Origin: Engelhardtia mirabilis
Lineage (GTDB): Bacteria; Planctomycetota; UBA1135; GCA-002686595
Length of the DNA stretch: 64,000 nucleotides
Direction of reading: 5' to 3'
Assembly: GCA_007751255.1 (NCBI GenBank)
Contig: CP036296.1
Span: 3,720,001-3,784,000, forward strand
Positions 1-30,532 of the stretch are shown here, in pieces (the first letter of the stretch is position 1; the number at the start of each line of letters is the position of its first letter). Made by a program: the position numbers and the translations under genes. A model generated the notes under the pieces. The model saw nothing but the letters and a program-made list of their open reading frames with translations. It did no database searches and had not been told where the DNA came from.

Positions 1-1293
<1,293 letters not shown>

Positions 1294-11643: not shown

Positions 11644-12870
11644 TCAGGCTCCCGCCGCGGGGAGGACCCGAGCACGGTGCGCGTCCATTGCGGCGACCAG
11701 GTGTTTGGAAGTCTCTCGGGCCACCTGTGAGAACCCGACCCCGGGGAGCCGCCCGGGCGGGAGCTGAGCAGCGAGCAGCGCGTTGGTGGATCGCCAGCGA
11801 GCCATTCCCGGCTCGGCCGCCTCTCCGGGAACGAGCATCGACGCCCCGGCACACGCCTGCGCGTCGATCGCCACGCCTTGCTCGTGCCGCGCGATCAACT
11901 CGTCGAGCCCACGCGCCAGGGCGCTGTCCGCCGCACAGAGCCGCTGCAACTCGACACCCTCCCAATCGGTCACGTAGTAGGCGTGGCCCAGGCGCACGAG
12001 CTGCAGCACGCGATCCCTCGCGACCGACCGCAGCTGCGCGCGCCGGGCGGCCCACCAGCGACGGAACTCGAGGCTTCCGAGGACCGGGCCGTGCAGTGCC
12101 CAACCGGCCAGGACATCGCCGCACGCCCACGAGAGCCCGAAGCACGCGATGCCCAGCCCGGCCGTCACTGCGACTCCACGCGCGCCACCTGGGCTGCCCA
12201 GCCGGTAGTGCGGAAGGGCGAACAGCCCCACAGCAAGGGCCGTCGCCAACCCCTCTTCGCCCGCCCACGTTGTGTCGCCTCCCACCAGCCGGAAGCACGC
12301 GAAGGTTGCCAGACCACGATAGAGCACCTCCTCGACCGCCGCCGAAAGCTGGACCTCGAGCCAGATCGACGTCGGCCCGTACCGCAGGCCGGCCCGACGG
12401 CTCGCTCGCATGCTGAAGGCCGCGGCCACGACCACGAGCACGACTGCAGCTTGGAGCGCGAATGGAATCGGGGCGCTCGCCCAGGCGTCTAGGCTCGACC
12501 GTCCGAGAACCGCCGCCTGGTCAGCGAAGTAGCACACGGCCCACAGCACCTTGTGGACCAACTCGCGCGACCCGGACCACGCAGCCGAGAGCAGCTCGCC
12601 GCGTGCCGTTCGCGTCGACCAGCCGAACAGGACCGACGCCTGCGCCCGCGCGAGGGGCAGACCGAGTACGAGCGAAGCGCCTTCTAGGAGGCCTCCGGGC
12701 TTCACGGCGGCCACCACGAAGTAGATCGCCGACCAAGACGCGACCAACGGCACCATCCCCCGCCGGTGCGGGTCGATCGGGCGCGTTCCGACCAGGATCT
12801 CGAGCGCCCGGAGGACTTGCGCCCATGGGACCGCCACGCGCGGCTGCTCAGGTCCTCTACCCAATGGCAC
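11644..12870 (-). CDS. CPBP-family intramembrane metalloprotease
   Basis: About 408 residues from a GTG at 12870; a TTG at 12864 fits the GAGGGG ribosome-binding site better and is an alternative. Both overlap the upstream gene's stop. It is a multi-spanning protein with CPBP (CAAX protease/bacteriocin-processing) motifs: EExxxR in SAAVEEVLYRG, a second-motif His in GLFALPHYRLG and a third-motif His in WALHGPVLG. The last 150 residues are soluble, with an ARGLDELIARHEQG segment and no known domain. Family members remove prenylated tails, process peptides or give immunity to bacteriocins. As the last gene of the RiPP operon it is a candidate leader-processing or immunity protease. Confidence 0.78.
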   Translation of the reverse strand: MPLGRGPEQPRVAVPWAQVLRALEILVGTRPIDPHRRGMVPLVASWSAIYFVVAAVKPGGLLEGASLVLGLPLARAQASVLFGWSTRTARGELLSAAWSGSRELVHKVLWAVCYFADQAAVLGRSSLDAWASAPIPFALQAAVVLVVVAAAFSMRASRRAGLRYGPTSIWLEVQLSAAVEEVLYRGLATFACFRLVGGDTTWAGEEGLATALAVGLFALPHYRLGSPGGARGVAVTAGLGIACFGLSWACGDVLAGWALHGPVLGSLEFRRWWAARRAQLRSVARDRVLQLVRLGHAYYVTDWEGVELQRLCAADSALARGLDELIARHEQGVAIDAQACAGASMLVPGEAAEPGMARWRSTNALLAAQLPPGRLPGVGFSQVARETSKHLVAAMDAHRARVLPAAGA

Positions 12871-14401: not shown

Positions 14402-14403
14402 AC

Positions 14404-16413
14404 CTAGGCCTCGGTCAGTGCCTCTCGGCCAGCCCTCGATGGTCGGCGCTCGAGCTCCTCGCTCGAGTTCGCGCCCCCACCGGGTTTGTCCTCCGGTCGC
14501 ACGTTGAACTGGGGGGCGTCGAGTTCGTACTCGAACCTCGGCACCACGGCCTTGGCCCGAGGCAGCGCGAGCGTCAGCACCTGCTCGCCCTCGACCATCA
14601 CCAGACCAAGCCCATCGAGCGCCGTAACTGCGGCGAGCACCTCGTCCCGCTCCCGCCCGATGTCGCGCGCGATGCGGTCCACCGAACGGATCTCGTCCGC
14701 GGCGAGGAAGACCTCCATCTCCGGCCCCGAGAGCACGTACTGCTGCCGCGCCTTCGCGTCGCGGGCGTCCTGCACGAGCACCCAGCTCCGAGCGCGACGG
14801 AAAGTGAGCTCGGGCATCCAAGATCCCTTCTCCCACCTCGCCTGCCAACGACGTACCAGCTTGCGGAGCTCCGACTTGAGGCGCCTCGCGATCGGCGGGT
14901 GCTCGAGCTTGTAGCGGAAGTAGAACGCGAGGCGATTCAGATCCACTCCGTCGGACGGAAAGATGTGCGCGTACGCACGGTGTGACTGAACGTCCTTGAT
15001 TCCGAACCTCGGCGCGTCGAAGTGCATCGGACTGAAGCGTTGCAGCATGAAGTCCCCAACACCGCTAGGCGGCGCGAGGTGGTGCAGACGCTTGGTCAGT
15101 TCGGCCTGCTGCAGGTAGTCCTCTGGAACCTCGCCTGGAAAACCGCACAAGATGTTGTAGGCCACCTCAACACCGTACTCGCGGCAGAACTTCAGCAACT
15201 GCACGTTGCGAATGCCCGAGACCCCCTTGTCCATCAGCTCGAGCACGTGCGAACTCAGGCTTTCCACGCCCGGTTGAATCGCACGCACTCGGGCATCCCT
15301 GAGCTGCTTGACGTCGGCGCGACTGAGGTTCGACTTGGTCTCGTAGAAGAACTCCAGACCCAGGTCCGCCTCCGCCAGAGCTGGGAGCAGGGTCCGGCGA
15401 TATCCCTGACTGATGATATTGTCAGCCGCGTGGAACGTGAGCTGGCGATATCGATCCGCCAGGCCCAGCACCTCGTCCAGCACTCGCTCCGGGTCCTTTG
15501 CCCGGAACTTCATGTTGCCGCCATTGAGTCCGCAGAAAGTGCAGTGGTGCACCTCGCCCCACCAGCATCCGCGAGCACTCTCGAACATCAGGCCCGACAC
15601 GCTTATCTGCTCACCGCGCGCATCGCGAACGCCCCGCACGGCGTCGAAGTACTCGTCGAAGAGCGGCGTCGGGGCTCCGTTCATGTCCTCCAAGCGCCCG
15701 GAGGTTGTGGCCCCCACGATCCCGCCGGTCGCGTCGCGGTGGATCAACTGCGGGGGGGCCTCGTCGGCCTCTCCGAGCGCCCATCGGAACGCATCCAGCC
15801 CGCCATCCTCCGCCTCGCCCTGAAACACGGCGTCGACCCAAGCAAAGGCGCGCATGACCTCATCCCCCATCTCACCCTCGACCTGCGCGCCCCCGAACAG
15901 GATGAAGGTCTTCGGCCGCAGCTCCTTGATCCGACGTGCGGCGGCGAGCGCCGGCACGAGCTGATTCACGCTACAGGTGAACGCGACGACGTCATAGCCG
16001 TTGGTCCGCCCCGCTACGTCCTCGATCAGCGCGGGCGCGCGCACGTCGCGCAGGTCTGCTATCCACTCGCGAAAGTCCTCGCCCAGGTAATCCTTGAAGC
16101 GGAACGACTCGCGGACGAGCGGCAACCACTTGTCCACCGCCTCGACGCCGGATTCACTCCGGCTCTCGGGAAACGCGGCCCTCGAGAAGACCCACTCGGC
16201 GGTGAAGGTCCAGAGCTTGCCGGAAGCAACGACGGCGTAGGCGTGCTGACCGAGCTCACACGCGAAGTCGACATTGGCGTGGATGACGTCAGCAGCCATG
16301 CCTCCACGCTCGAGCAGCGCCTTCAGAATGCCGGCGGGAAGGCTGGGACGAGCGCACTCTGCCCAGGGCATGACGACGACGGAGACGCGAGACGTATTCT
16401 TGGGCTGGATCAT
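14404..16413 (-). CDS. RiPP maturation radical SAM C-methyltransferase (B12-type), copy 1
   Basis: 669 residues from the ATG at 16413. The N-terminal half (about 1-215) is a cobalamin-binding-like Rossmann domain: AFTCSVNQLVPALAAA, ILFGGAQVEGEMG, WVDAVFQGEAE. The radical SAM core starts at RGCWWGEVHHCTFCGLNGG with cysteines 283, 291 and 294 (C-x7-C-x2-C). This RGCWWG-x3-HC-x-FCGLNG signature is that of the RiPP maturation radical SAM protein 1 family (TIGR03975 type), known as C-methyltransferases or related tailoring enzymes found with RiPP precursors. A C-terminal winged-helix-like region follows (about 560-640). It shares the whole architecture with the copy at 24920-26899. It likely methylates unactivated carbons of the core peptide. 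Confidence 0.86.
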   Translation of the reverse strand: MIQPKNTSRVSVVVMPWAECARPSLPAGILKALLERGGMAADVIHANVDFACELGQHAYAVVASGKLWTFTAEWVFSRAAFPESRSESGVEAVDKWLPLVRESFRFKDYLGEDFREWIADLRDVRAPALIEDVAGRTNGYDVVAFTCSVNQLVPALAAARRIKELRPKTFILFGGAQVEGEMGDEVMRAFAWVDAVFQGEAEDGGLDAFRWALGEADEAPPQLIHRDATGGIVGATTSGRLEDMNGAPTPLFDEYFDAVRGVRDARGEQISVSGLMFESARGCWWGEVHHCTFCGLNGGNMKFRAKDPERVLDEVLGLADRYRQLTFHAADNIISQGYRRTLLPALAEADLGLEFFYETKSNLSRADVKQLRDARVRAIQPGVESLSSHVLELMDKGVSGIRNVQLLKFCREYGVEVAYNILCGFPGEVPEDYLQQAELTKRLHHLAPPSGVGDFMLQRFSPMHFDAPRFGIKDVQSHRAYAHIFPSDGVDLNRLAFYFRYKLEHPPIARRLKSELRKLVRRWQARWEKGSWMPELTFRRARSWVLVQDARDAKARQQYVLSGPEMEVFLAADEIRSVDRIARDIGRERDEVLAAVTALDGLGLVMVEGEQVLTLALPRAKAVVPRFEYELDAPQFNVRPEDKPGGGANSSEELERRPSRAGREALTEA

Positions 16414-16465: not shown

Positions 16466-17239
16466 TCAAACTCCGGCCACCATCGGGAGAACGAGTAGGA
16501 TCGACAGGTTCGTAGCGCCGTGCAGTAGCCACGCCGGCAGAGCGCCGTAGCGCAGGTAGGCGAGGGCGAAAGCCAGCGCACCAAGGGCCTTGGGTACGCC
16601 GAACTGGATCCACGTCAGGGGGTCACTGGCCGGACCGGACTGAATCGCGTGGACCGCGACAGCAATCGCGACGGAAGCGGCGACGGCTACAGACCTCTCC
16701 CCCGCTCGCCGGCCGAGCCCGAGTAGGAGCAGGAGCAGCTCGATCGGCATCCAGCGCACGACGACGTCTTCCTGAATCGCCGCGCTGAGAATGCCGAGCA
16801 CCGCCACCGCCGAGCGCTCAGGAGTTTCGAACAGTCGCGACCAGCCGACGCCCGGATCGACACCGCACAGCAGCTGCAGAAGCGGGGTGGCCAGCGAGAG
16901 GGCGAGAGCAGCGGGTAGAATCTCGGTCAACACCGCGTGCGCCCGCATCTTCGGTGCGACCAGCGCCGCTCTCAGTCCTCCGAGGCGGTGCAGCGCCAGG
17001 GAGAGCCCCACGGCTGAGACCACCGCCAGTATTGGGACCACGAGCGGCAGGATCGTCTCGACCAGCTCTCGCTTGCGCGCTCGCGTGATCTGCGGTGAAT
17101 GCGCTTCGATGAAGAAGTTCGCCGTCAGCACCGACGATGCGCCGACCAACAACGAGCCGACGAACACGCTGTAGATGGGCGGTGCGGTCGGCCCGGGAGG
17201 GGAGCTCCCGGAGACCGTCTGAATCGGCGGCGAACTCAT
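16466..17239 (-). CDS. CPBP-like membrane protease, variant active site
   Basis: 257 residues. The ATG at 17239 overlaps the stop of the upstream gene (ATGA) and has a GGGGGA ribosome-binding site. About six to eight hydrophobic segments. The CPBP motif 1 is altered: AAIQEDVVVRW gives E-D-x3-R instead of E-E-x3-R. Motif 2 His is in AVAVHAIQSG and motif 3 is H-x3-N (LLHGATN), both conserved. The Glu-to-Asp change may keep or weaken metal-dependent proteolysis. With the neighbouring exporter lacking its own peptidase domain, it is a candidate for leader cleavage or self-immunity. Confidence 0.7.
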   Translation of the reverse strand: MSSPPIQTVSGSSPPGPTAPPIYSVFVGSLLVGASSVLTANFFIEAHSPQITRARKRELVETILPLVVPILAVVSAVGLSLALHRLGGLRAALVAPKMRAHAVLTEILPAALALSLATPLLQLLCGVDPGVGWSRLFETPERSAVAVLGILSAAIQEDVVVRWMPIELLLLLLGLGRRAGERSVAVAASVAIAVAVHAIQSGPASDPLTWIQFGVPKALGALAFALAYLRYGALPAWLLHGATNLSILLVLPMVAGV

Positions 17240-19761
17240 TCGGATCCCCCTGGCACCACGAAAGACCAAGCGGGATGCGACGCTGCCGCGTCGAAGTCGT
17301 AGATGTGAACCTCGTCTAGTGGGCCATCGGGCGCGTAGTAATAGAGACGGTAATAGCCCGGCACCAGGCTCGTCTCGATGCGCCCATCGACGACCGTGTG
17401 CGGCGACCCTCCGCCGCCGCCTCCCGCAAGGACCGGGATCGAGCTCGGCTCGACCAAGAGACCCGACTCGTTCGCTATCACCGCCCGCCCGTCGGCCGGC
17501 GACCCGTCAACCAGGACGAGCTCGATCGAGACCTGGGTCGTCGCCGGCAGCGCAACGACCAGCTCTTCACCGTCGGACGGCAGCGAGAGCCCCTCGAAGT
17601 AGGCCAGCGGTGCCTCACCGGCTCGACGGGGTGCCACCGCCAGGGCGATCGACGCCGTCGGAGGCACTCCATCGAGGCGTACCCGACCGTCCACGTCCGT
17701 CGATCCGCACGGCGTCAGGGTGCTGCCCGGCGGATAGGCGCCGCCCTCGCCGAAGTAGGCCAGCGCCACGTCGGCGCCAGCGACCGCTCGACCGTCCCTG
17801 TCCACAACCCTGACCGGGAGCGCGGTCTCGGCGCGGCGCATTCGCACGATGATCTCTTGCTCTGCCCGCCGCTCGAGATCCCACACGTCCGTCGGAGCGA
17901 AGCCCTTGGCGCTGACGGTGAGGTAGAGGTCGGACTCCGGATCAAAGGGGACCGTCAGTCGACCGTTGTCGGTCTCGAGCAGCCCCAGTCGCTCGAATGC
18001 AGCCGCGACGTCGTCGTAGAGATGCAGCTCCACCGAGCGGACCGGCGTCCCACGCTCGTCCACGACGAGCAACCGCAACATGTCGCGCTGCTCGAACTCG
18101 AAGTCCAGATCCGAGCTCCCGACGGCAACGCTCTCGTACAGCTTGGGCGTCACGTTGCACCTCGGCCGCAGGCGGCTCCCGTAGGCCTTGACGGTCAGCT
18201 CCTCGGCGGCCGACGGGATGGCCAGCTCGAATCGCTCCAGCTCGGCCGGCACCCGAAAACCGTAGCTCTTGCCGCGCAGCGGCCCAGCGCCGACGTCGAC
18301 GACGATCGAGACGAACCCCTCCAAGCCCTCCGCCTTGCGGATCTCTCCGCTGATTGAGCCATCGATCTTCAGGACAGAGAGCTCGACTGTCACCGAGGCA
18401 CCGGGCTCGACGGCAACCTCCGCTGTGGCGCTCGAGTAGCCGTCGTGCCGAACACCGACCTCGATCTGTCCGGCCGCCGTGCGCACCCCTTCGAATGCGA
18501 AGCGACCGTCGGAGTCGCTCACCGTCTCTCGTCCGAGTACATCGAGCGCCGCCCGGTTGGAGGAGGTCCGGAGCCCTGACTCAGGGTGCAGGAAGGTGGT
18601 GGACGACACATAGACGTCGACGCCTTCGACCGGATCGCCGTCGTGATCGACCACGCGGCCCTCCACCCGACAGCCACCGCTGGCGGCCAGCGTTACGGGC
18701 CCCACCGGCGCACCCTCGAGCACCAACGGCTCCGATGTCACCGCGGTCTCTCCCTGGTCCAACACGGCGAAGAGGTGGAAGTCACCGGGCGGCAGGCGGT
18801 CGAATGCGAAGTTCCCATCGCCTGCGATCGTGGCGAACTCCTCGGCCACCGAAAAGTCGCGCAGCTCCGGTGCGTCGGCTCCCTCGTAGACGACGAAGAC
18901 TGCGCCTCCCGTTGCCGGCGCACCCGCCGACGTGAGAACTTGCCCGAAGAGGGAGATGCCGGGCAGCAGGTCGACTTCGATCGTGTCACCCGCCTCGACC
19001 ACGTGGACGTCGGCAACCCACGGCCGGAAGCCATCAGCGACGACACGGCACAAGTAGACGCCCGGCTCGCCGCCCTCGAGTTCGACCAGCCCCGACGGCC
19101 CGGTCACTCCACGCAGGCTCCAGTCCGCTCGTGTTCCGGCAGGAAGGACGCCCGCGCGACCGATGCCGCCCTCGAAGAGCACGACCTCGGCACCTCCCAC
19201 CGGGACGCGCTCATCGCCAATGCCCGCACGCCCGACATCGACCCGTACGACTATTCCATCAGCGAGCGCGACCAGGAGCCTGTGAAGCTCGCCCGCTCGA
19301 ACCTCTACCCCGTCGAACAGCTCGGGAACGAAGCCGTCGGCGGCGGCCACGAGGCCGTAGGTTCCGGGCTTGATCCCATCGATCCGGAAGCGACCGTCCG
19401 AATCGCTGGTTCCTTCCCAACGATCGAAGAGCCCCGCCACCACGATCTTCGCGCCGGGCACGATCTGTCCGTCGTTCAGGGTCGTCACCAGGCCCCCGAC
19501 CGAGCCCCAGTCGATCTTCGACGCGCGCTCGTTCGAATCGGCCTCCACCCGTAGCGCATCGATTGCCGCCTGCGGCACCTCCGCGAGCGGAACCGCAGTG
19601 GAAAGGACCACTCCCGGACGCGCGGCATCGACCCGATCGACCATCTCGCGCTCGGCGACGCGGCGCTCGCGTTCCATGGCACCCAAGTAGTACCAGTTCA
19701 GGAACCCGAGCAGCGCTAGACCGACGACGACAGCCAGCAGGCGCCCCTGACTACCCTTCAT
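17236..19761 (-). CDS. membrane-anchored carboxypeptidase-regulatory-like repeat protein
   Basis: 841 residues. ATG at 19761 with GAGGAG nine bases upstream. One N-terminal transmembrane helix (LLAVVVGLALLGFLNWYYLG) with a short basic cytoplasmic tail, then a long extracytoplasmic part. This part contains about six to seven beta-sandwich domains of the CarboxypepD_reg/CNA-B kind, recognisable by repeated D-S-D-G-R-F-x-[FI]-x-G-[IV] and G-x-Y-x-L-x-A-x-A-x-G-[FY] phrases. There is no catalytic domain. Such proteins usually bind surfaces or peptides. Its place between the ABC exporter and the CPBP protease suggests a periplasmic chaperone, product-binding or immunity role; this is inference only. 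Confidence 0.7.
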   Translation of the reverse strand: MKGSQGRLLAVVVGLALLGFLNWYYLGAMERERRVAEREMVDRVDAARPGVVLSTAVPLAEVPQAAIDALRVEADSNERASKIDWGSVGGLVTTLNDGQIVPGAKIVVAGLFDRWEGTSDSDGRFRIDGIKPGTYGLVAAADGFVPELFDGVEVRAGELHRLLVALADGIVVRVDVGRAGIGDERVPVGGAEVVLFEGGIGRAGVLPAGTRADWSLRGVTGPSGLVELEGGEPGVYLCRVVADGFRPWVADVHVVEAGDTIEVDLLPGISLFGQVLTSAGAPATGGAVFVVYEGADAPELRDFSVAEEFATIAGDGNFAFDRLPPGDFHLFAVLDQGETAVTSEPLVLEGAPVGPVTLAASGGCRVEGRVVDHDGDPVEGVDVYVSSTTFLHPESGLRTSSNRAALDVLGRETVSDSDGRFAFEGVRTAAGQIEVGVRHDGYSSATAEVAVEPGASVTVELSVLKIDGSISGEIRKAEGLEGFVSIVVDVGAGPLRGKSYGFRVPAELERFELAIPSAAEELTVKAYGSRLRPRCNVTPKLYESVAVGSSDLDFEFEQRDMLRLLVVDERGTPVRSVELHLYDDVAAAFERLGLLETDNGRLTVPFDPESDLYLTVSAKGFAPTDVWDLERRAEQEIIVRMRRAETALPVRVVDRDGRAVAGADVALAYFGEGGAYPPGSTLTPCGSTDVDGRVRLDGVPPTASIALAVAPRRAGEAPLAYFEGLSLPSDGEELVVALPATTQVSIELVLVDGSPADGRAVIANESGLLVEPSSIPVLAGGGGGGSPHTVVDGRIETSLVPGYYRLYYYAPDGPLDEVHIYDFDAAASHPAWSFVVPGGSE

Positions 19762-19783: not shown

Positions 19784-21880
19784 TCACGGTATGGCCAGCC
19801 TATCAAATCCAGATTCGACCGCTCCGCCCTCGCCCAGATCGAGACAGGCCTTGGACCGCGCCGAACTCGACATCGAGATTCCGCCGGGCACAACGCGACG
19901 CACCTGCGGTAGGACGAGGGCGCGATAGTCATCCGAGCGCTCGAACAGCTCTTCATGAGTACCCGAGTCGACGACGGAGCCCTCCACCAGGACATGGATC
20001 TGGTCGAAGCGTTGGATGCATGAGAAGCGGTGCGAGACTGCAATCAGCACTCCGTCATCCCGGGTCATCAGCAGGTCCAGCACACGTTCTTCCAGGGCCG
20101 CGTCGAGTCCGCTGGTCGCCTCGTCCAGGATCCAGCACGAGGACGAGTGCAATAGCTCCCTGAGGAGCAATAGGCGCTGTCGCTCGCCCGCCGAGAGCTG
20201 CGGACGCCCGGGCGGAATGAGCTCCGGCGGCAAGAGGTCGGGCAGTCCGAGGCCCAGTCGCAGTTCGCGATTGCGCCCGTGCCGGCGGGCCCGGCCGGCG
20301 ACCTGATCGAGCCCGAGCGTGGAGACGATCTCGTCCAGTTGACCCTCGATGGGCCCGGGTTGATCGACACGATAGATTGCGTTCTCACGGAACGACCGAT
20401 CGAGCACGAAACCCTCGTGCGAGATGGCACTCAGCTGCCGGCGGAAGGACGCGAGGTCCAGATCTCGCAAGTCGTGACCGTTGACGAGGATGCGCCCCTT
20501 CGTCGGACGGTAGTAGCCGCAGATCAGCCGCCCGATGGTGGACTTGCCGACCCCGCTCGCACCGACGAGGATCGCAGATCGACCGGCCTCGAACTCGAGA
20601 TCGATCCCCTTCAGTACCCACTCGGACTGACCCGTCGATGGTTCCCGTCGACCGAGAGCCAGCCGCACCTCGGCCGCCGAGATCCTGCCCCGACGCAACT
20701 TCTTGGCCAGCTTTCGCTCGACCGCAGGCGGGAGCGGCACGTCGCGCTCCGGGTAGGCGAACCAGACGTCCTCGAAGACGACCTGCCGAACCGGCTCGTC
20801 CAGCACCCGACTTCCGGATTCGCCCTCGTACTCGTCGCCCATCGCGAGAATCTCCCGCACACGGTCAACTGCCACCATCGCCTCGTCGATCTTCGCACCG
20901 GTGCGGATACTCGACTGGAACGCGTTGATCGCCATCCCGGAGAACATCGCGAAGCTCACGAAGCTACCCAGGCTTAGGTCGCCGCGACTGACCAGGATCA
21001 GTCCGTAGAAGTACACCAGCAGAGGAAGCACTCGTTGAACGAGACGGCCTGCGGCCCCTGACAGCGCTCGCAACCTCTCGATTCGCCGAACCTCCAGGAA
21101 GGCCAGGTGCGACCGACGCTCGAACTCCTCCGTCTCGCGGTCCTCTCGGACCGAGAGCTTCACGAGGGGAAGTGACCTGATGACGTCCGCCAGCCAGCTC
21201 GAATTCGACGCCGTCAGCTCGGATTGAACCTCCTGCACGTCCCGCATTCGGCGGCGGATGATCAGAATCAGCCAGGCGCTGAAGGGAGTAACGATCAACA
21301 CCCACAGGAACATCTTGATGCTGATCGCGGCCATCAGTCCACCGAACACCAAGGCCCGGAACACGGCCGACAGCCGCAGCACAAGGTTGTGCGGGTAGAT
21401 CGCGGTCATGGCGCGCGCGTCGCCCTGAATCCGACTTTGCCAGTACCCGGCGTCCCGGCTGTAGGTGTCAACCAGGGGCGCGCGCGCGATCTTGCCAAAA
21501 AGGCGCACGGTCAGCCGATCGCCGATCCCGTGGTCCTGGAGACGAGCCAAGTAGTTGTAGAAGAACCGCAACGACCCGGCGATGAGCATCAGCCCGCCCA
21601 CGATGGCCCCGATCGCCGGAAGCCGACGAGGCAGGTCCTCACCCATGGCACGGTCGAGCGAACCACCTGCCACGAGCGGCATGGCGATCTCCGTCGCCGT
21701 GCGCACGAGAGTGAGGAGAATCCCGACGAAGAAGGGCAGCCAGTCCGGCTTGAGGTGGTGCCAGGTCCACCCGATAGCCTCCTTCCACTTCGCTACTCGC
21801 CAGCGGCGCGGACCATCCCCCAGGTCCGCCGACAGATCGCCGACGGACCCGGAGTCACCCGAACCAGATTCCGGTTCCAC
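19784..21880 (-). CDS. ABC transporter, fused permease/ATPase, probable RiPP exporter
   Basis: 698 residues, GTG start 2 nt after the maturase stop with GGTGAG upstream. An N-terminal six-helix exporter domain covers about 40-350. The C-terminal nucleotide-binding domain has Walker A GASGVGKST, a signature LSAGERQ (LSGGQ variant), Walker B CWILDEATSGLD and the switch His in IAVSHRFS. It therefore forms a homodimeric half transporter. No N-terminal C39 peptidase domain is present, so it cannot cleave a double-glycine leader itself. An insert of about 45 residues between the membrane domain and Walker A (KKLRRGRISAAEVRLALGR) is unusual. It most likely exports the mature peptide encoded at 23892-24380. 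Confidence 0.86.
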   Translation of the reverse strand: MEPESGSGDSGSVGDLSADLGDGPRRWRVAKWKEAIGWTWHHLKPDWLPFFVGILLTLVRTATEIAMPLVAGGSLDRAMGEDLPRRLPAIGAIVGGLMLIAGSLRFFYNYLARLQDHGIGDRLTVRLFGKIARAPLVDTYSRDAGYWQSRIQGDARAMTAIYPHNLVLRLSAVFRALVFGGLMAAISIKMFLWVLIVTPFSAWLILIIRRRMRDVQEVQSELTASNSSWLADVIRSLPLVKLSVREDRETEEFERRSHLAFLEVRRIERLRALSGAAGRLVQRVLPLLVYFYGLILVSRGDLSLGSFVSFAMFSGMAINAFQSSIRTGAKIDEAMVAVDRVREILAMGDEYEGESGSRVLDEPVRQVVFEDVWFAYPERDVPLPPAVERKLAKKLRRGRISAAEVRLALGRREPSTGQSEWVLKGIDLEFEAGRSAILVGASGVGKSTIGRLICGYYRPTKGRILVNGHDLRDLDLASFRRQLSAISHEGFVLDRSFRENAIYRVDQPGPIEGQLDEIVSTLGLDQVAGRARRHGRNRELRLGLGLPDLLPPELIPPGRPQLSAGERQRLLLLRELLHSSSCWILDEATSGLDAALEERVLDLLMTRDDGVLIAVSHRFSCIQRFDQIHVLVEGSVVDSGTHEELFERSDDYRALVLPQVRRVVPGGISMSSSARSKACLDLGEGGAVESGFDRLAIP

Positions 21881-21882: not shown

Positions 21883-23658
21883 TCAGCTCACCGAGTTCTC
21901 GCGGCCGACTTGGAGCGCCGCTTCTTTCGCCCGAACCTGGCTCAAGAGACGTTCACAGAGGCTCACAATGCGGAAGTCCTCGCGCTCGGTCTCGATTCGC
22001 TCTTCGAGGTAGTCGACGATCTCCTGGAACGGGATCCCCAGCACGTCGTACTCCCGAATGCACTCAGGCGACACGCCGTAGGCATCGTTGAAGAGGTAGC
22101 CGGGGTTGGCCCGGCAGGTCTTCCCATAGAAGCAGTTCTCGATGAAGTTGCAGCTGTTGCAGAGCCGCAGCTTGGGACGGTAGTCCGCGCGTAGCCAATC
22201 CCAGCCAGGCGAGGACCAGATATCCACCAACTCGCGATCCCGAACCGAGCCCATCGCGTAGGGAGCGGCGCCCACATACCGCGGGCAGCCGTAGGCCTGC
22301 CCATCGGCCCCGAGGGCCATCTGTGAAGTGCCCGCCGTGCAGACGTTGAAACCAGCCGCGCGACTCTGAGAGTACTTGCGCTGGAACGACTTCTTCCAGT
22401 CGGCGGACTCCGGAGTGATCTCCACTTCCGCCTCCGCACGCACCTCGAGCGCTTCCTCCTCCACCTTCGGCTCGTCGAGAGGGAACGTGTAGCTGCTGAA
22501 ATTGATCTGCAGCCCGCGTCGGGCCCACTTGTCGATGATCGGCTCGATGTCTCCCCGCAGCGCGACGAGTTCCTCGCGCGTGAAGTAGATGTTCTCTTCA
22601 CTCTCGCCGGTCCCGATCTGCTCGCCGGGATGCACCGAGATCCACGTCACACCGTGGGTTCGCACGACTTCGGCGAGCGCATCGAGCTCCGCCGCGCAGG
22701 CGCTTCCCTTGTGCAGCACCGACTCCACGAAGAAGTGGATTCGATGCTTCTGAAGCAGCTTCATGGTTCTGACCACTCGGTCGAAGTTGCCCTTGCGATT
22801 GCGGAGGAAATCGTGCGTCGACGCCGTGCCGCCGTCCAGGGAGAGGTGGATCGAGAAGCGACTCCCCTTGCGCGTCTTGGCATCGATGAACTTGTCGATG
22901 TTGTCCTCGTTGATCCGCGTCCCATTGGTGTACAGGACCACGGTGAAGCGCCGCGAGAGGGCATCTTCGAAGATCTCCCAGAAGTCAGGCCGAATCATTG
23001 GCTCGCCGCCGGTCAGGCGGACGCTCTCGACGCCACCCTCCTCGAGCTGATCGAAGACACGACTCAGCTCGTCGGTCGACAGGTCGTTCTTCGTCGATAC
23101 GTGCGGATTGGAGCCGACGCAGCAGTGCAGGCAGGCGAGATTGCAGCGCTCGGTGAGATTGATACCCACCGAAACCGGGAAGCTCCGGACCTGCTTGTCG
23201 TGCCTCTGAAGCGAGGGGGCCTTGAAGAAGATCGGCCGGTCCTCCTTGCTCCACTCCAGCTTGTGCCGCTGCTGAGCGATCTTGTCGTTGACTTCGTTCG
23301 TGGGGCGGATCAAGCACAGCCCTACCAACCGATCCATGTAGGCGGCGAGGGCCTCGTCGATCGGCACCTCATCACCGACGAGGACGGGCAGCTCTTCGAC
23401 GAAGAAGCGCTCGACGTCCGCCCGCAGGCGCGGCTCACCGAAGAAGCGCAGAAGCTCGAACTCGATCCGGCCGGGGTAGTGCGTCTGGTACCGCACGTTG
23501 TCCCGCACTTGGAAGCCGAACTCCGAGAAGTTCTCGGTTTCGTCGATCAGGGTCAGCTTGTCCGCCAGGACAAAGGCGTCGTAGCGAAGATCTTCCCAGC
23601 CCTTCTTCTCGGGCTGCTTGGCGCGGACCTCGTCAATCCTGAAGGCTGATCTGGGCAT
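21883..23658 (-). CDS. radical SAM/SPASM RiPP maturase
   Basis: 591 residues. ATG at 23658 with AGGAGG six bases upstream. The N-terminal 155 residues lack cluster motifs and could hold a leader-binding (RRE-like) region, but I cannot confirm the fold. The radical SAM core has C-x3-C-x2-C at 172, 176 and 179 (RCNLACLHCC), the SAM motif LTGGEPM and SIHLSLDGG. The C-terminal SPASM domain has CTAG, GCPRYVG and CNSCNFIENCFYGKTC, giving enough cysteines for two auxiliary clusters. Family members form thioether or C-C crosslinks, or epimerise residues, in RiPP precursors. It is the first enzyme downstream of the Cys/Asn-repeat precursor, so that precursor is the likely substrate. Confidence 0.87.
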   Translation of the reverse strand: MPRSAFRIDEVRAKQPEKKGWEDLRYDAFVLADKLTLIDETENFSEFGFQVRDNVRYQTHYPGRIEFELLRFFGEPRLRADVERFFVEELPVLVGDEVPIDEALAAYMDRLVGLCLIRPTNEVNDKIAQQRHKLEWSKEDRPIFFKAPSLQRHDKQVRSFPVSVGINLTERCNLACLHCCVGSNPHVSTKNDLSTDELSRVFDQLEEGGVESVRLTGGEPMIRPDFWEIFEDALSRRFTVVLYTNGTRINEDNIDKFIDAKTRKGSRFSIHLSLDGGTASTHDFLRNRKGNFDRVVRTMKLLQKHRIHFFVESVLHKGSACAAELDALAEVVRTHGVTWISVHPGEQIGTGESEENIYFTREELVALRGDIEPIIDKWARRGLQINFSSYTFPLDEPKVEEEALEVRAEAEVEITPESADWKKSFQRKYSQSRAAGFNVCTAGTSQMALGADGQAYGCPRYVGAAPYAMGSVRDRELVDIWSSPGWDWLRADYRPKLRLCNSCNFIENCFYGKTCRANPGYLFNDAYGVSPECIREYDVLGIPFQEIVDYLEERIETEREDFRIVSLCERLLSQVRAKEAALQVGRENSVS

Positions 23659-23682
23659 TTGGTCCTCCTGCGGTAGAACCCG

Positions 23683-23891: not shown

Positions 23892-24380
23892 TCACGACGC
23901 CTTCTGCTTCTCCTTGCCGTGCTCGCAGCAATTCAGATCATCGCAGGAATCGTTGTTGCTGCAGGTCGTGTTGTCCGTGCAGCTGACGTTGTCGTAACAG
24001 GCGGAGTTCTCTCCGAACCAGCCGCTGTCACAGGCCTGGTTGTTCGAGCAACCGCTGTTCTCGTTGCAATCGTCGTTGTCGACGCAGTTGGTGTTGTCGT
24101 CGCACTCGGCATTCGTCTTGCACGTGTTGTTGTCGTCGCAAGAGTCATTCATCCCGCACGAGTTGTTGTCATCCCCGGCGACGGTGTCATAGATGGTGAC
24201 CCCGGCACCGGCAACGCCGACGACGCCGCAGTAGACGGCGACGACCGCGTGCAGCTTCTCGATATCTCCAACGTCGCCGTCGGTGACCGAGATGATGTCG
24301 CCGAACCCCGGCCGGGCCGGGGGCCGGCGCGCACGGCGAGACACACGTCTGCTCTGAGGTCCCTCAAGGGTTGTGAGCAT
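23892..24380 (-). CDS. RiPP precursor peptide with N-x-x-C hexad core
   Basis: 162 residues. The ATG at 24380 has a strong AAGGAG ribosome-binding site eight to nine bases upstream. Residues 1-30 are basic (RRVSRRARRPPARP). Residues 31-70 hold an acidic segment (DGDVGDIEKL) and a hydrophobic Gly/Val stretch (AVVAVYCGVVGVAGAGV). From residue 71 the core is Cys-, Asn- and Asp-rich: cysteines at 75, 81, 87, 93, 99, 105, 111, 117, 128, 134, 140 and 146 each have Asn exactly three residues before, usually preceded by D, N or E. Cysteines 151-152 and a charged tail EHGKEKQKAS end the protein. One 11-residue unit (117-128, containing WFG) breaks the period. It heads an operon of maturases and an exporter. 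Disulfide-rich or metal-binding secreted protein is the alternative. Confidence 0.82.
   Translation of the reverse strand: MLTTLEGPQSRRVSRRARRPPARPGFGDIISVTDGDVGDIEKLHAVVAVYCGVVGVAGAGVTIYDTVAGDDNNSCGMNDSCDDNNTCKTNAECDDNTNCVDNDDCNENSGCSNNQACDSGWFGENSACYDNVSCTDNTTCSNNDSCDDLNCCEHGKEKQKAS
23925..24170 (-). repeat. hexapeptide N-x-x-C repeat array of the precursor core
   Basis: Covers residues 71-152. The repeat unit is 18 bp, consensus C-x-[D/N/E]-N-x-x. Cys-to-Cys and Asn-to-Asn distances are both six residues, except for one 11-residue interval at 117-128. Asn at -3 holds for all twelve cysteines from 75 to 146. The stretch is visibly richer in A and T than its neighbours because of the AAC, GAC and TGC codons. 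Confidence 0.85.
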
Positions 24381-24919: not shown

Positions 24920-26899
24920 ATGCCGCTCCAGGATGTCGATCTCGCACTAGTACGAATGCCTTGGTCCGCTCTGGACCGGCCGTCGCCCGCGCTCGGGATA
25001 CTCCGGCCACTGCTCGACTCGTACGGCGTCAGTCATGAGACGGTCTTCGGGGACTTCCTGACTGCGCAAGAGATCGGATTGGACCTCTACCGTCGGATCG
25101 CGGCCGGCGACAGCTGGGTTCTACTGCCGGAATGGCTGTTCTCGCGCGCCGCGTTCCCCGAGCGATTCGAATCCGCAGCCGGGATCGCACTGGACGAACT
25201 GGACGACGTCAGCCGCCGAGAACTGCGTGCGGTCCTTCGCGACCACGGCGAGGCCCTAGGCGAGTTCCGTGATCGCGGTGCGACCGCCGTTGCGGCCCGG
25301 ATCGTGGAGCAGCTGGCTGGCGCCCGGGCAGTCGCCTTCACGTGCAGCATCAATCAACTCGTTCCGGCCCTGGCCGTCGCGAGGCTCCTGAAGGATCGGC
25401 GCCCAGACGTTCGCGTACTGCTCGGAGGGACCCAGGTCGAGGGCGACATGGGTAACGCGGTCCTCGAGGTCGCACCCTGGATCGACGCCGTGTACATGGG
25501 CGAGGCCGAGGTCGGTCTGCGCCAGACGATGGACTGGCTGCTGCGCCGATCTCCTTCGCCGTCTACACCGTTCCTGTCCCACCGCGCTGAGGACGGAAGT
25601 GTTGTCCGTGCCCGCGACGTGGGGCTGCTTCACGACATGGACGCGAGCCCGGTCCCGGACTATCGACCGTACATCGAGCACCTCACGAGTCCGCTGGCTC
25701 GCGGGCTCGACGTGACGTGCTCGTCGATCCCCTTCGTAAGCTCGCGTGGATGCTGGTGGGGCGCCCGTAGTCATTGCACGTTCTGTGGTCTCAACGGAAC
25801 GGGGCTTGCGTTCCGCGCCAAGTCCCCGGAGCGCGTCTACCGAGAGCTGCTCGGCCTCGCCCAGGACTATCAGTCGCTGACCCTGGTCGGCATGGACAAC
25901 ATCATCCCGCACGGATACTTCAACACACTCCTGCCACGCTTGGCTGCTTCGGGGCTCGACTTGGATATCCGCTACGAGGCGAAAGCGAATCTCAAGCGTG
26001 ACCAGATGCGAGCGTTCCGAGATGCCGGTGTCCGGGTGATTCAACCGGGGATCGAGAGCTTGAGTGACCATTCGCTCGAACTCATGGCGAAGGGTGTGAC
26101 GGCAATCCAGAACATCCAGACCTTGAAGCTCGCCGGGCACTACGGAATCGAGCCCCAGTGGAACTTGCTCTTCGGCTTTCCGGGCGAGACCGACGAGGAC
26201 CTCCTGGAGCAGGCGGCGCTGATGCCGCGACTGCACCACCTGCCCCCGCCCGTCGGTCCGGCGCCCGTGCGGGTGGAGCGATTCAGTCCCTACCACTTCG
26301 AGCCCGAGCGGCACGGGATCGACGAGCTCGCGCCGCTCGCCGGCTACCAACACGTGTTCCCGTCGTCCGCGATCGAGCTCGCGGACCTGGCCTTCTACTT
26401 CGACATCCGCACCCGCTCCCGTCCCGGGCCCAGTGAACGCGCCGCAGCGTCCTTCATGACCGCCTGCCACGAGTGGCAGCGACGATGGGCTCGCGGAGCC
26501 TCGCCGCCGCTCCTGCACTACTACCGCGGGCCGGGATTCGTCGAGGTTCGCGACCGACGTCACCGGAACACCTCGCTCATCCATCGGCTCGAGGGGCTCG
26601 AAGCCGAGCTGCTGCTGTCCCTCGACGACAGGACCGGTCGGCGGCAGCTCCACGAACGCTTCGGTGACCCAGTCGCGGTCGACTTGGCCCTGCGGGCCCT
26701 GGACCGTGTACGCCTCATCCTCGATGACGGGCGCTCGGTGGTCGGGCTCCCGCTTCCGGCGCCCAAGGGCCTGGACAGTAGCGCCCGGCGCGAGGTCTTT
26801 GTCGCCAAGGTGCCCCAGGCCGCAAGCCGTGCCCATCGCCGCGCGCCCCGTCCGACGGCGGGTCTCGCGCCGACAGCCGTGGCAACGAAAGGGAACTGA
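24920..26899 (+). CDS. RiPP maturation radical SAM C-methyltransferase (B12-type), copy 2
   Basis: 659 residues, ATG preceded by GGAGGAG. Same layout as copy 1: cobalamin-binding-like domain (FTCSINQLVPALAVAR, LLGGTQVEGDMG, WIDAVYMGEAE), then the radical SAM core with RGCWWGARSHCTFCGLNG and cysteines 278, 286 and 289 (C-x7-C-x2-C). Shared later blocks are YEAKANL, IQPGIESLSDHSLELMAKGV and LLFGFPGETDEDL. It diverges from copy 1 in the linker regions and the C-terminal tail, suggesting a different site choice on the same substrate or a second substrate. It is the first gene of the plus-strand operon; the next ATG is 1 nt past its stop. Confidence 0.86.
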   Translation: MPLQDVDLALVRMPWSALDRPSPALGILRPLLDSYGVSHETVFGDFLTAQEIGLDLYRRIAAGDSWVLLPEWLFSRAAFPERFESAAGIALDELDDVSRRELRAVLRDHGEALGEFRDRGATAVAARIVEQLAGARAVAFTCSINQLVPALAVARLLKDRRPDVRVLLGGTQVEGDMGNAVLEVAPWIDAVYMGEAEVGLRQTMDWLLRRSPSPSTPFLSHRAEDGSVVRARDVGLLHDMDASPVPDYRPYIEHLTSPLARGLDVTCSSIPFVSSRGCWWGARSHCTFCGLNGTGLAFRAKSPERVYRELLGLAQDYQSLTLVGMDNIIPHGYFNTLLPRLAASGLDLDIRYEAKANLKRDQMRAFRDAGVRVIQPGIESLSDHSLELMAKGVTAIQNIQTLKLAGHYGIEPQWNLLFGFPGETDEDLLEQAALMPRLHHLPPPVGPAPVRVERFSPYHFEPERHGIDELAPLAGYQHVFPSSAIELADLAFYFDIRTRSRPGPSERAAASFMTACHEWQRRWARGASPPLLHYYRGPGFVEVRDRRHRNTSLIHRLEGLEAELLLSLDDRTGRRQLHERFGDPVAVDLALRALDRVRLILDDGRSVVGLPLPAPKGLDSSARREVFVAKVPQAASRAHRRAPRPTAGLAPTAVATKGN

Positions 26900-26900: not shown

Positions 26901-28472
26901 ATGGACCTGGCCAGAGACTCCTCGGCCACCCCGATCCGCCTGGTCTCGTTCGCGTCCGGCTTCACGGTCCTGGCCCTCGAGATCGTCGGCGCCCGGATGG
27001 TGGCGCCGGCGTTCGGCGGCTCGATCTACGTATGGGCGGCACTCCTGACGACGACACTGCTGTCGCTGGGAGTCGGCTACGCCGTCGGCGGCTTTCTGTC
27101 CGACCGCTTCGATCCACGGCGCGCGCTCGAGCAGGTGGTCGGGATCGCGGCCCTGATCCTGCTGGCGCTGCCCTTCTACAAATCGTCCGTGGCGAGCGCG
27201 GCGGCGAGTCTTGGCGTGCGTGCCGGCGCACTGGTCACGACCGGCCTCCTCTTGGGCCCGCCCCTGGTCACCCTCGGCTGCGTCCTGCCCCTCTGTCTGG
27301 GCGCCAGGGTCCGGGCCGTGGACCGGCTCGGCCGCGAGTTCGGAACACTCAGCCTGTGGTCGACGGCGGGCAGCGTACTGGGGACGCTCTCCACCGGGTT
27401 CTACTTACTCCAGTGGCTGTCGCTGTCGGAGATCCTCCGGGCCCTGGCAGGCGCCATGGTGGTCTGCTTGGCTCTCGTACTGTGGAGTAACCGTCGGCGC
27501 CCGGGTCGACCGCGCCGCGCCAGCGCTCTCGCGGGCTACGCGGCACTGGTCGCATTCGTGCCGTTCGAGCCCCAGGTCGCCTCGGATGGTGCGGTCACGA
27601 TCCCGTCGCTCTACGGCGAGGTGCGCGTCGAGGACGATCGACGGTCCGGGCACCGGACCTTGTTTCTCGACGGCCTTCCGAACTCGCGGGTCGGCCTTGA
27701 CGGCCGGTCGTCGGAATCGGACGTGGTCTACGGCCTGGAGCTCGTCACCGCCATGCGCCCCAAGCTGCGCCGGGTGCTGTTCATCGGGCTGGGCGCGGGC
27801 CGCGGCGTCGAGGTCCTCTGGAACTCGCACGGGATCGTCTCCGATGTCGTCGAGATCGATCCCAGTGTGGTTCGGGTGGCCCGCGAGTACTTCCAATTCG
27901 AGTCCCAGGGAGCCGTTGTCGTCGGCGACGGACGCCGCTTCTGCCGATCGACTTCCCAGTGCTACGACGCCGTCGTGCTCGACGCCTTCTCCGGCGACTC
28001 TCACCCCTACCACCTGCTCAGCGCTGAGGCACTCGAAGATTACCGCTCCTGCCTCGCGCCAGACGGGGTCCTGGCCTGCAATCTCCTCACCTACGCGAGC
28101 GGGGAGCGGGCTCGCCTGCGCGCCTCGGTTGCGGCGACGTTCCGCAGCGCCTTTGCGAACTTGTCCACCTTCAACGCGAACCCGCGCCGCGACTCGAGCG
28201 GCGTCTGCAACCTGCTTTTCTTCGCATCGGACGGGCCACTCGACATCGCCCCCGAGACCTTCTCCGACGACTCCGGCCTGGCCTCTTACTACCGCAGTAT
28301 CGTGGACGCCTTGGCGGCGAGCCCGACCGATCTCCCCCCGGGCGTGGTCTTGACCGACGACCACAATCCCGCCGACCTGCTCGGCGCCGAGGCCTTCCTC
28401 GACATCCGCCGCGAATCCAAGCCCTTCCGAGTCGCTCGCCGCCGATGGTCGATTGAAGCGGTGGCGCGTTGA
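26901..28472 (+). CDS. fused MFS-type membrane / spermidine synthase-like protein
   Basis: 523 residues. The N-terminal 220 residues have about six to seven membrane segments of the kind found in fused-MFS/spermidine synthases (GFTVLALEIVGARMVAPAFGG, LGVGYAVGGFLSDRF). The C-terminal 280 residues form a class I Rossmann transferase domain with VLFIGLGAGRGVE, VVEIDPSVVRVAREYF and AVVLDAFSGDSHPYHL, as in polyamine synthases. In characterised enzymes this domain moves aminopropyl groups from decarboxylated SAM, or acts as a methyltransferase; the actual activity is unknown. Tight spacing with the B12-radical SAM gene and overlap with the peptidase gene suggest a role in peptide tailoring or transport. 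Confidence 0.76.
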   Translation: MDLARDSSATPIRLVSFASGFTVLALEIVGARMVAPAFGGSIYVWAALLTTTLLSLGVGYAVGGFLSDRFDPRRALEQVVGIAALILLALPFYKSSVASAAASLGVRAGALVTTGLLLGPPLVTLGCVLPLCLGARVRAVDRLGREFGTLSLWSTAGSVLGTLSTGFYLLQWLSLSEILRALAGAMVVCLALVLWSNRRRPGRPRRASALAGYAALVAFVPFEPQVASDGAVTIPSLYGEVRVEDDRRSGHRTLFLDGLPNSRVGLDGRSSESDVVYGLELVTAMRPKLRRVLFIGLGAGRGVEVLWNSHGIVSDVVEIDPSVVRVAREYFQFESQGAVVVGDGRRFCRSTSQCYDAVVLDAFSGDSHPYHLLSAEALEDYRSCLAPDGVLACNLLTYASGERARLRASVAATFRSAFANLSTFNANPRRDSSGVCNLLFFASDGPLDIAPETFSDDSGLASYYRSIVDALAASPTDLPPGVVLTDDHNPADLLGAEAFLDIRRESKPFRVARRRWSIEAVAR

Positions 28473-30532
28473 GACTGCCGCGCAGGCTCCCGAGCCTCGC
28501 GCTCGCCCGCCTTCGCCGAACCGTGCGACGATGGTCGCTCGGCCGAGTCTCGTCTCCCTGGCCGGATATCGTCGCCGCTCAGTTGGACCTCCACCTGAGC
28601 GCGGCTGGGGACTTCGAGGCCAGGGTCGAGCTCGAGGTGTCAGGCTCGCTGGGTGTGTGGTGGCCCTTCCTCCTGGCAAGGCCCTTGGAACTCATCGCGG
28701 TATTCGATCTGTCGGACACCGTCGAAGGGCAGTGCTCCCTTCGGGGCCCTACGGCGCACGGTCTGCCGCTGGCGACGGAGGGTGCGCTGTACGGTGTACG
28801 CCTCTCCAGCTCTTGCGGCCGACCGCGCCGGGCCCGTCTGCGCTTCGAGATTCGCGGGCGCGGGTTGAACGAGCGTCGACGAGACTGGCGCGGAGCGATC
28901 GTTGCTGACGGCGAGCGCGTGCGCATGTCGGAGCAGAGCCTCTTTCTGCCCCAGGTGCTCGTGAGTCCCGGCAACCGGGCGCCGGCGACCTTTCCCTGGG
29001 AAGCGTTCGTTACCGTTCCGAAGGGAATCGAGATGATCATGCCCGGGCAGATGCTCGAGGCGCCGACCGACGTACCGTGCGGCGTTCGCTGGCGTTTCGG
29101 TTCGAGCGAGCCCTCGACCCTCTGGATCGTGGGTGCAAGGAAGCCGCGGATCGTCATTCCACCTCGCGAGAGCCGCTCGCCGGCAATCACCGCCGTAATG
29201 GACGATTCGCCGGCCCACTCGGCGATCGACTACGCCAGGACTCTGCAGGACGCGGTCGAGTCCTACTCGGAGCTCTTCGCCCCTACCACGCTGCATACGG
29301 TCGCGGTCGTGCACGACGAGTCCATGAACTACCATTGGTCATCGCCGGGTATGGTCCTTTTGGGTCGCCACGGGACCCGGCTTCCCGTGGGCCTCATAGG
29401 ACACGAGGCGGCCCATTTCTGGTGGGGTGGCGCAACGGTGTTCGTCGGCCTTGGCGAACGCTTCCTGACCGAAGGACTGGCGGAGTACTCGGCGTGGCGC
29501 TTCATGGAGCGGCGTGGCTCAGGGGACGGAGCTACCCAGCGAGCCCGAGAGGCGCGGAACACGCTTCAGGTAAGGGCCCGCGAGGGTCAGCCCTGCCCGG
29601 CCCTGCTGGTCGCGAACTTCGACACGCTGGGCTACGACACCGCGGTCTACCTCTTGGCTCCGCTGGTCCTTCGATATCTCGAGCTGCGGATTGGACAGCA
29701 GCGCTTCGACGAATTCCTCGGTCGCCTGGCCCGGCGTCGGATCGTCGGCGCAGCCGACGCGGTGGCCGAGATCGGCGCGCTGCTGGGTGGCGCGACCGAG
29801 GCGCTGATTCGCGAAGCACCGTGGCTCCTGCAACCCGGGCCCTTTGAAGTTCTCGTCGAGAGTATCGAATCGTCCTCCCATGGCCGACACGTCGAGCTAA
29901 CCACCAGGTTCGTTCGATCGAACGAACAGGTCTCCTTCGACGGAGTGCTCTCGGTGACGTGCCACGGGCGCGGGGGCGGCGATCGCTGCCAACGCGAGCT
30001 TCGCTTCGTCGGTGGAGTTGGGCGCGCCTCGCTCGCCGCTCCCTTCGAGATCGCGGAGCTCTGGTTCGATCCCGACGCACGATTCCCGGCCCGCGTGCCG
30101 CCGGTACAACGAGCGACGGCGGGTGGCGCCTGGCTGGCCTTGGACACGCCTCCGGCGGTGAGCGCGGCCCGTTTCGTCCCCAATGCGAGCGAGACCGGTC
30201 GGGGCCACCTCGAGGTGCGATTCGACCGCCCGATGGACGGTCGAATGGGGATCAACCGCGTCGATCAAGACGAGGCCCGCCAGCGCGGCTACAAGATTCC
30301 CCGCGTGGTTGACGGTGAGTGGCGGGAGGGAGGCGCGGTGCTGGACTTGTGGCTGCAGGGACTCGAGCCGGACGAGCTCTACACCGTGCCCTTCCGCGGG
30401 CGACGATTCCGCGACCTCTACGGCATGCCCCTCGCCGCCTTCGACGTCCGAGTTGCGGTTGGGCCCGCGGCGGCCAACGCTGAGGTCGTGGACGGTGAAC
30501 CGGTCGACGAGTCCGATCTCGTCCCCTCGTAG
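28469..30532 (+). CDS. M1-family (gluzincin) metallopeptidase-like protein
   Basis: 687 residues. The TTG start overlaps the preceding stop (TTGA). The zinc motif H-E-x-x-H plus downstream Glu is intact: H312, E313, H316 and E335 (GHEAAHFWWGG then FLTEGLAEYSAW), with the exact M1 spacing. Residues 30-230 fit the M1 N-terminal beta domain but a clear GAMEN motif is missing; MNYHWSSPG (286-294) is in that place. A C-terminal helical domain and a beta-rich tail follow. No signal peptide is evident. Family members are aminopeptidases. In this cluster it is a candidate for trimming the leader or degrading exported product. Confidence 0.78.
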   Translation: MRLPRRLPSLALARLRRTVRRWSLGRVSSPWPDIVAAQLDLHLSAAGDFEARVELEVSGSLGVWWPFLLARPLELIAVFDLSDTVEGQCSLRGPTAHGLPLATEGALYGVRLSSSCGRPRRARLRFEIRGRGLNERRRDWRGAIVADGERVRMSEQSLFLPQVLVSPGNRAPATFPWEAFVTVPKGIEMIMPGQMLEAPTDVPCGVRWRFGSSEPSTLWIVGARKPRIVIPPRESRSPAITAVMDDSPAHSAIDYARTLQDAVESYSELFAPTTLHTVAVVHDESMNYHWSSPGMVLLGRHGTRLPVGLIGHEAAHFWWGGATVFVGLGERFLTEGLAEYSAWRFMERRGSGDGATQRAREARNTLQVRAREGQPCPALLVANFDTLGYDTAVYLLAPLVLRYLELRIGQQRFDEFLGRLARRRIVGAADAVAEIGALLGGATEALIREAPWLLQPGPFEVLVESIESSSHGRHVELTTRFVRSNEQVSFDGVLSVTCHGRGGGDRCQRELRFVGGVGRASLAAPFEIAELWFDPDARFPARVPPVQRATAGGAWLALDTPPAVSAARFVPNASETGRGHLEVRFDRPMDGRMGINRVDQDEARQRGYKIPRVVDGEWREGGAVLDLWLQGLEPDELYTVPFRGRRFRDLYGMPLAAFDVRVAVGPAAANAEVVDGEPVDESDLVPS

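Follow-up and report, generated by a model that had tools for sequence, protein, structure and literature searches.

In this work, we asked whether a short protein of Engelhardtia mirabilis, in which Asn and Cys recur with a period of six residues beside a SPASM radical SAM gene, is a RiPP precursor, and which bonds would then be formed in it. The window, i.e., the whole stretch of DNA that was analysed, comprises 64,000 nt of CP036296.1 (from 3,720,001 to 3,784,000), and its relevant features are collected in Table 1.

Table 1. Features of the precursor locus (positions within the window) and precursor regions in two Bacteroidota loci (positions within each locus).
Feature	Position	Strand	Basis or remark
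Precursor peptide, 162 aa	23892..24380	minus	12 N-x-x-C units in core; homologues found
SPASM radical SAM maturase, 591 aa, putative substrate-modifying enzyme	21883..23658	minus	Pfam, motifs, orthologues
ABC exporter (permease + ATPase)	19784..21880	minus	Pfam ABC_membrane, ABC_tran; synteny
CarboxypepD_reg-repeat protein	17236..19761	minus	PF13620, 4.3e-42; synteny
CPBP (Rce1-like) membrane protease	16466..17239	minus	PF02517, 3.3e-6, 27.7 bits vs 22.4
B12-binding radical SAM TIGR03975 (RiPP maturation C-methyltransferase)	14404..16413	minus	567 bits vs 281.85; synteny
Membrane protein (by reading), no family	12857..14848	minus	between methyltransferase and second protease; cluster membership uncertain
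Second CPBP-like protease, divergent	11644..12930	minus	PF02517, 6.2e-4, 20.4 bits, below cut-off 22.4; EEVLYR, FALPH
Second TIGR03975 C-methyltransferase	24920..26899	plus	532 bits vs 281.85; divergently transcribed
Fused MFS/spermidine synthase-like protein	26901..28472	plus	NF037959, 169 bits vs 40; membership uncertain
M1-peptidase-like protein	28469..30532	plus	PF01433, 2.5e-5, 24.4 bits, below cut-off 27.7; membership uncertain
Bacteroidota precursor regions	L036:3969-4574; L115:7043-7330		beside SPASM enzymes

The precursor and its N-x-x-C array

The precursor gene begins with an ATG codon at 24380, with an AAGGAG ribosome-binding site in front. Its product consists of a leader (about residues 1-69), with a hydrophobic segment at about 44-65 by reading, and a core (about 70-162), and we infer the border between them to lie at about 69/70. 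Cys residues of the core are located at positions 75, 81, 87, 93, 99, 105, 111, 117, 128, 134, 140, 146, 151, and 152. A first-pass annotation, made from the sequence alone, had described Asn exactly three residues before all twelve Cys from 75 to 146, D, N or E at -4 in ten of the twelve, and a six-residue spacing broken by one 11-residue unit. These counts were reproduced: Asn precedes the Cys at -3 in 12/12 cases between C75 and C146, the -4 position is D, E or N in 10/12 (the exceptions being M and T), and the spacing is six for seven intervals, eleven once, and then six for three more. Cys51 in the leader, Cys151, and Cys152 are off the pattern. When the 93-residue core was shuffled, none of 200,000 sequences reached 12 N-x-x-C units, the maximum being 9. 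A recent tandem duplication at the DNA level does not account for the array, because the pairwise DNA identity of the twelve hexads averages 0.56. The core is polar and acidic, and it is rich in Asp (16/93 residues). Furthermore, the only match of the precursor in its own genome is itself, and no Pfam or NCBIfam family was matched at E 0.01.

Homologous precursors and the conserved gene cluster

A homologous precursor (L053) was reached on the Planctomycetota contig JACQZJ010000032.1 by a scan for the spacing pattern only, in which no homology was used. It has 160 residues and 13 N-x-x-C units, shares the 11-residue unit and the leader motif with the window precursor, and is 48% identical to it (locus L285, 19 kb around this precursor in genome G061, taken as the same genome as G081). 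A profile built from these two precursors was run against 392 genomes of the phylum and, among the candidates scored, matched at E <= 1e-6 the window genome, G081, and G299 (3/392). Two of these three matches are given by construction, because the profile was built from them; the third, G299, belongs to the window's family with a precursor of eight units, and was located through the precursor alone, its adjoining SPASM maturase being recognised afterwards. At the order level, the search gave two true matches in 154 genomes (the window genome and G299) and one that was rejected, and the class-level search for the window returned the identical 154-genome tally; in the class of G081, one of 14 genomes carries the precursor. 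A profile of the three maturases at E <= 1e-35 also returned the same three of the 392 genomes among the candidates scored, again by construction since it was built from these enzymes. The informative part of the profile searches is the discovery of G299 and the absence elsewhere, which is limited by the share of first-look candidates that was scored per genome (e.g., 9/54 and 3/19).

G490 (E 6.7e-7) was rejected as a homologue, its Cys-rich protein having no N-x-x-C. A weak profile match was given by L292:1375-1770, a small lipoprotein-like protein that is rich in Cys, carries CKGENGC repeats, and is taken to be bufferin-like.

Three homologous precursors, the window's included, were available for comparison. 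In the eight hexads that they share, the N and C columns are invariant (16/16), compared with 3/30 of the other columns (Fisher 1e-9), and as judged from this alignment the N-x-x-C pattern is under selection. The first-pass annotation had held that homologues found mostly without radical SAM neighbours would speak against its reading; all three precursor genes lie directly before a SPASM maturase.

The maturase gene of the window starts at 23658 with AGGAGG in front, and its product matches Pfam Radical_SAM (3.1e-28) and SPASM (1.3e-9), with a CxxxCxxC motif at 172-179 and a seven-Cys SPASM domain at 440-533. It is 52-54% identical to its two orthologues (L285 and L288, the latter being the G299 locus). 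A SPASM maturase encoded beside a Cys-rich precursor is the gene arrangement of ranthipeptides. Among the best 25 of 81 NCBIfam families, none was above cut-off for the maturase and the SCIFF maturase TIGR03974 was absent; the PapB model NF047865 reaches 66.6 bits where its cut-off is 340, which leaves the enzyme outside the PapB family. Within a set of 60 relatives the next best score was 55.5 bits, compared with 1373 for the maturase itself, and the 92 plasmid records matching it at E 1e-10 were all below 60% identity, none of them covering at least 80% in one place. A PqqD-like RRE in the maturase was found neither by Pfam nor through a PqqD search of its own genome or PDB sequences, and two AlphaFold models made for this question (pLDDT 50 and 41) were too poor for use.

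The order precursor, SPASM maturase, ABC exporter, CarboxypepD_reg protein, TIGR03975 enzyme, and second CPBP protease is common to the three genomes. Identities to the window proteins are 52% (SPASM), 44% (ABC), 31% (CarboxypepD_reg), 43.5% (TIGR03975), and 40% (second CPBP) in L285, and 54, 35, 28, and 33% for SPASM, ABC, CarboxypepD_reg, and the second CPBP, respectively, in G299, whose operon carries two TIGR03975 genes in tandem. The first CPBP protease has a similar stretch in L285 (45% over 241 residues) and was not found in G299 at E 1e-3. The product of 12857..14848 matched no Pfam or NCBIfam family at E 0.01, and BLAST found no counterpart of it in L285 (E 1e-4) or L288 (E 1e-3). The CarboxypepD_reg protein has an N-terminal hydrophobic helix by reading and is a putative exported or membrane-anchored partner, and no peptidase domain is among the Pfam matches of the exporter. 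A conserved leader and a variable core beside tailoring enzymes and an exporter, the combination expected of a RiPP locus, were all found.

The first-pass annotation had also held that co-occurrence with TIGR03975-type enzymes would favour its reading, and two such genes, both well above cut-off, are present. The window genome has 15 TIGR03975 matches, of which only these two exceed the cut-off, and the divergently transcribed one (24920) probably belongs to the cluster. The motif C-x7-C-x2-C, which PMC11285071 reports for PoyC in its available text, is present in each of the five TIGR03975 enzymes encoded by the three clusters.

In the remainder of the window, two more radical SAM genes were observed (1397-2773 and 34602-35621), one of which has a SPASM domain and adjoins an adenosine deaminase gene. 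RNA families, including the B12 riboswitch, gave no matches in the whole window at gathering thresholds, the tRNA scan of the window found none, and scanning 23600-25000 for promoters and terminators gave no useful information.

Separate N-x-x-C arrays and the pattern scan

The pattern (AAY N6 TGY N6)x4 was found in at least 119 stretches of genome contigs and at least 120 of viral contigs, and since these figures are lower bounds, more N-x-x-C arrays may exist. The 239 loci listed contained 188 frames with four consecutive units, of which the best 45 by hexad DNA identity and up to 70 by unit count were inspected; most proved by reading to be tandem repeats or wrong frames. Seven of the best 45 have a hexad DNA identity of 0.59 or less, a cut chosen post hoc. 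Four of the seven (L115, L036, L053, and L247) have a radical SAM-like frame in the locus. The other three were set aside: L040, metallothionein-like by reading, has the pattern at 5/15 Cys, and its 8-kb locus lacks a radical SAM-like frame; L047 is a large protein; and L249 is noise by reading. Altogether, a radical SAM-like frame is present in 6/239 listed loci, the additional two being L092, where the array is antisense to that frame, and L065, which has no in-frame array. L092 (positions 1-8000), a metagenome contig filed as Klebsiella pneumoniae, was also seen to carry six same-strand open frames that resemble radical SAM enzymes (phmmer E 6e-14 to 2e-6).

Two of these loci are from Bacteroidota. 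In Paraprevotella xylaniphila (L036), a SPASM gene is followed by two precursors with Asn at -3 in 3/6 and 9/11 Cys, and in Prevotella sp. ne3005 (L115), a precursor with Asn at -3 in 6/7 Cys stands beside a SPASM enzyme. The 3/6 precursor alone is within chance (3875/50,000 shuffles), whereas the 9/11 and 6/7 precursors are beyond it (0 and 6 of 50,000, respectively). Asn at +3 is rarer than at -3 in each, with 1, 6, and 5 occurrences in the 3/6, 9/11, and 6/7 cases. These precursors resemble that of the window in having N-x-x-C hexads beside a SPASM maturase, but their leaders are of the GG type by reading. Moreover, the two maturases are only 27% identical over 407 aligned positions, and the Paraprevotella enzyme matches that of the window weakly (152 residues, 19%), its nearest models being TIGR04463, CefB, and others, all below their cut-offs. 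The Paraprevotella genome, unlike the window, has no TIGR03975 match above cut-off, so in this organism N-x-x-C goes with the SPASM enzyme and not with the methyltransferase. These sequence comparisons suggest that the N-x-x-C spacing tracks SPASM enzymes and probably arose more than once. No N-x-x-C array of Planctomycetota or Bacteroidota appeared in the titles and abstracts of the literature searched, most of it outside subscription journals. As observations on the neighbouring genes, a weakly outer-membrane-barrel-like protein (PF14905, 18.9 bits, below the cut-off of 27) comes next in L036, and in L115 the SPASM frame continues to 1101 residues, its second part having no Pfam match.

A phage array was met in the same scan. 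A phage fibre-like protein with DUF2341 and Laminin_G_3 domains is encoded at L247:2492-4894 and L298:88-1356 (IMG/VR UViG_3300045017_000039); it has no PHROG match itself, and a tail-fibre match lies upstream. Its C-terminal 211 residues contain 60 Cys, 57 of which have Asn (31) or Asp (26) at +3, and 21/60 have Asn at -3, a number reached in none of 20,000 shuffles. A SPASM-type radical SAM gene lies directly 3' of the fibre-like gene (PHROG 1802, E 2.6e-27), and one scan of viral contigs with this enzyme as query matched this record only. Possibly the phage encodes both a virion protein and the enzyme that crosslinks it, the polarity being opposite to that of the window array.

Probable maturation, competing explanations, and meaning

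The proposal of the first-pass annotation that a RiPP precursor lies here beside a SPASM enzyme is strongly supported, because the N and C columns are invariant, the SPASM gene adjoins the precursor within the shared operon in 3/3 genomes, and separate arrays occur in Bacteroidota. On this sequence evidence, we regard the protein as very probably a RiPP precursor that the adjoining SPASM enzyme matures, and its pairing with this enzyme as substrate is highly probable. Its product would be a highly repetitive variant of known chemistry, a ranthipeptide of the NxxC type with a presumed Asn-Cys bond.

According to the parts available of the sources, NxxcA of Streptococcus orisratti has the N-x-x-C spacing, and its enzyme NxxcB joins Cys23 to the beta carbon of the upstream Asn20 (PMC8326336, PMC13361665, PMC9012708). 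The statement of the first-pass annotation that no characterised RiPP carries this unit is corrected by NxxcA, and of its claim of a new core pattern with up to twelve units, the unit is known, while the eight- to thirteen-fold array and the gene set are new. The likeness to NxxcA/NxxcB consists of precursor spacing (Asn three before Cys, at 33/36 core Cys of the three precursors) and enzyme type (a SPASM radical SAM maturase). NxxcA has one ring, whereas the window family has 8, 12, and 13 units, in Planctomycetota, and the window cluster differs further by its methyltransferases, CPBP proteases, and CarboxypepD_reg protein. Freyrasin (PapA/PapB) is similar in having several regularly spaced Cys with a fixed acceptor each, and its single SPASM maturase PapB forms six beta-thioethers in one peptide, as given in the accessible part of PMC9413430; unlike in the window, its spacing is C-x3-D, with the acceptor Asp downstream of Cys.

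We propose that the leader would present the core to the neighbouring SPASM enzyme, which would remove a hydrogen from each Asn side chain, most likely at the beta carbon, and join that carbon to the Cys sulfur three positions further downstream, repeating this along the core. Up to twelve N-x-x-C thioether rings of four residues, one per hexad and each with a loss of 2 Da, would result, because NxxcB makes a bond of the same spacing and PapB makes six links. One or two of the PoyC-type TIGR03975 B12 enzymes would then methylate carbons of core residues, and the product would leave via the ABC exporter. The CPBP membrane proteases would remove the leader, cleaving it close to its hydrophobic segment, a guess made because the exporter has no peptidase domain match and the leader has such a segment. 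To this explanation as a whole, we assign a probability of roughly 0.63. Taken separately, an Asn-Cys thioether in this peptide is probable by analogy with NxxcA, C-methylation is only slightly less so, attachment at the Asn beta carbon is an even bet, and leader cleavage through the CPBP proteases is tentative.

The direction of the pair is important for the strongest alternative, a RiPP with another radical SAM outcome: a sactionine linked at the alpha carbon, a link to the downstream Asn or to an Asp on either side, or epimerised or oxidised residues with the Cys remaining free or forming disulfides. As a group, SPASM enzymes form several bond types, as stated in the text available of PMC8326336 and PMC9012708. 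The nearest solved relative of the maturase by profile is SkfB (6efn, E 7e-18), which we take to be an alpha-thioether former, and the Asp content of the core would also suit a link to Asp. Among the 36 core Cys of the three precursors, Asn is at -3 in 33 and at +3 in 28, and no other position up to six residues away has Asn in more than four cases. In the interior of a regular array, -3 and +3 cannot be told apart, and only its ends discriminate between them. In all three precursors, the Cys at the array ends (C117 and C146 in the window, C118 and C147 in L053, and the final Cys in G299) retain the -3 Asn and have none at +3, so the partner is the upstream Asn, in the N-x-x-C direction. Exceptions at -3 are C151 and C152 of the window and C153 of L053, which has Asn at +3; C160 of L053 has Asn at -3 and is uninformative on +3, because it is the final residue. 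Spacing and direction also match exactly those of NxxcA in the available part of PMC8326336, and we consider another outcome unlikely.

It is much less probable that the core is a polytheonamide-type beta-helical peptide of period six, in which the Asn and Cys would form two ladders, a PoyC-type enzyme would methylate carbons, and thioethers would be absent or secondary. The PoyC motif in 5/5 methyltransferases is in accord with it, and in polytheonamide the GNINVN hexad makes one helix turn, with a chain of Asn16/22/28 along the helix (PMC11285071, in the part available). The window precursor, with no Pfam or NCBIfam match at E 0.01, shows no leader of the NHLP or nif11 type, for which these libraries include models. 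No epimerase appeared in the general family matches (best 25 of 81 for the SPASM enzyme), the core is polar and acidic, and the one Bacteroidota genome tested (Paraprevotella) has no TIGR03975 above cut-off. To our knowledge, polytheonamide has no such Cys array. Least probable of all is an unmodified or disulfide-bonded secreted metal-binding protein, metallothionein- or bufferin-like, that lies beside a RiPP cluster by chance: the L040 array and the L292 protein recall it, but L040 shows the pattern in a third of its Cys and has no radical SAM-like frame in 8 kb, the L292 protein has no N-x-x-C, and the operon recurs in three genomes, the SPASM gene always adjoining the precursor directly.

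Returning to the SPASM-made N-x-x-C rings, a further reading, which we put forward as a rather improbable speculation, is a polymer-like RiPP. Here, a soluble, acidic chain some 75 residues long would be stiffened by 12-13 Asn-Cys staples of period six, together with C-methylation, into a rigid rod or helix with Asn and Cys as two ladders. Planctomycetota and Bacteroidota would have arrived separately at this solution, their leaders being different and their maturases only distantly similar. If true, the peptide would hold twice the six links of freyrasin in one uniform array. Looking for N-x-x-C hexads that adjoin a SPASM gene is a simple rule for genome mining, and in this analysis it led to separate clusters in another phylum. 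If the bonds are present, one enzyme would form about twelve identical crosslinks along one peptide, and the order, direction, and completeness of iterative radical crosslinking could be tested on a natural substrate in which only the four positions outside the Asn-Cys pair vary from unit to unit. NxxC chemistry would then also extend from streptococci to Planctomycetota and Bacteroidota.
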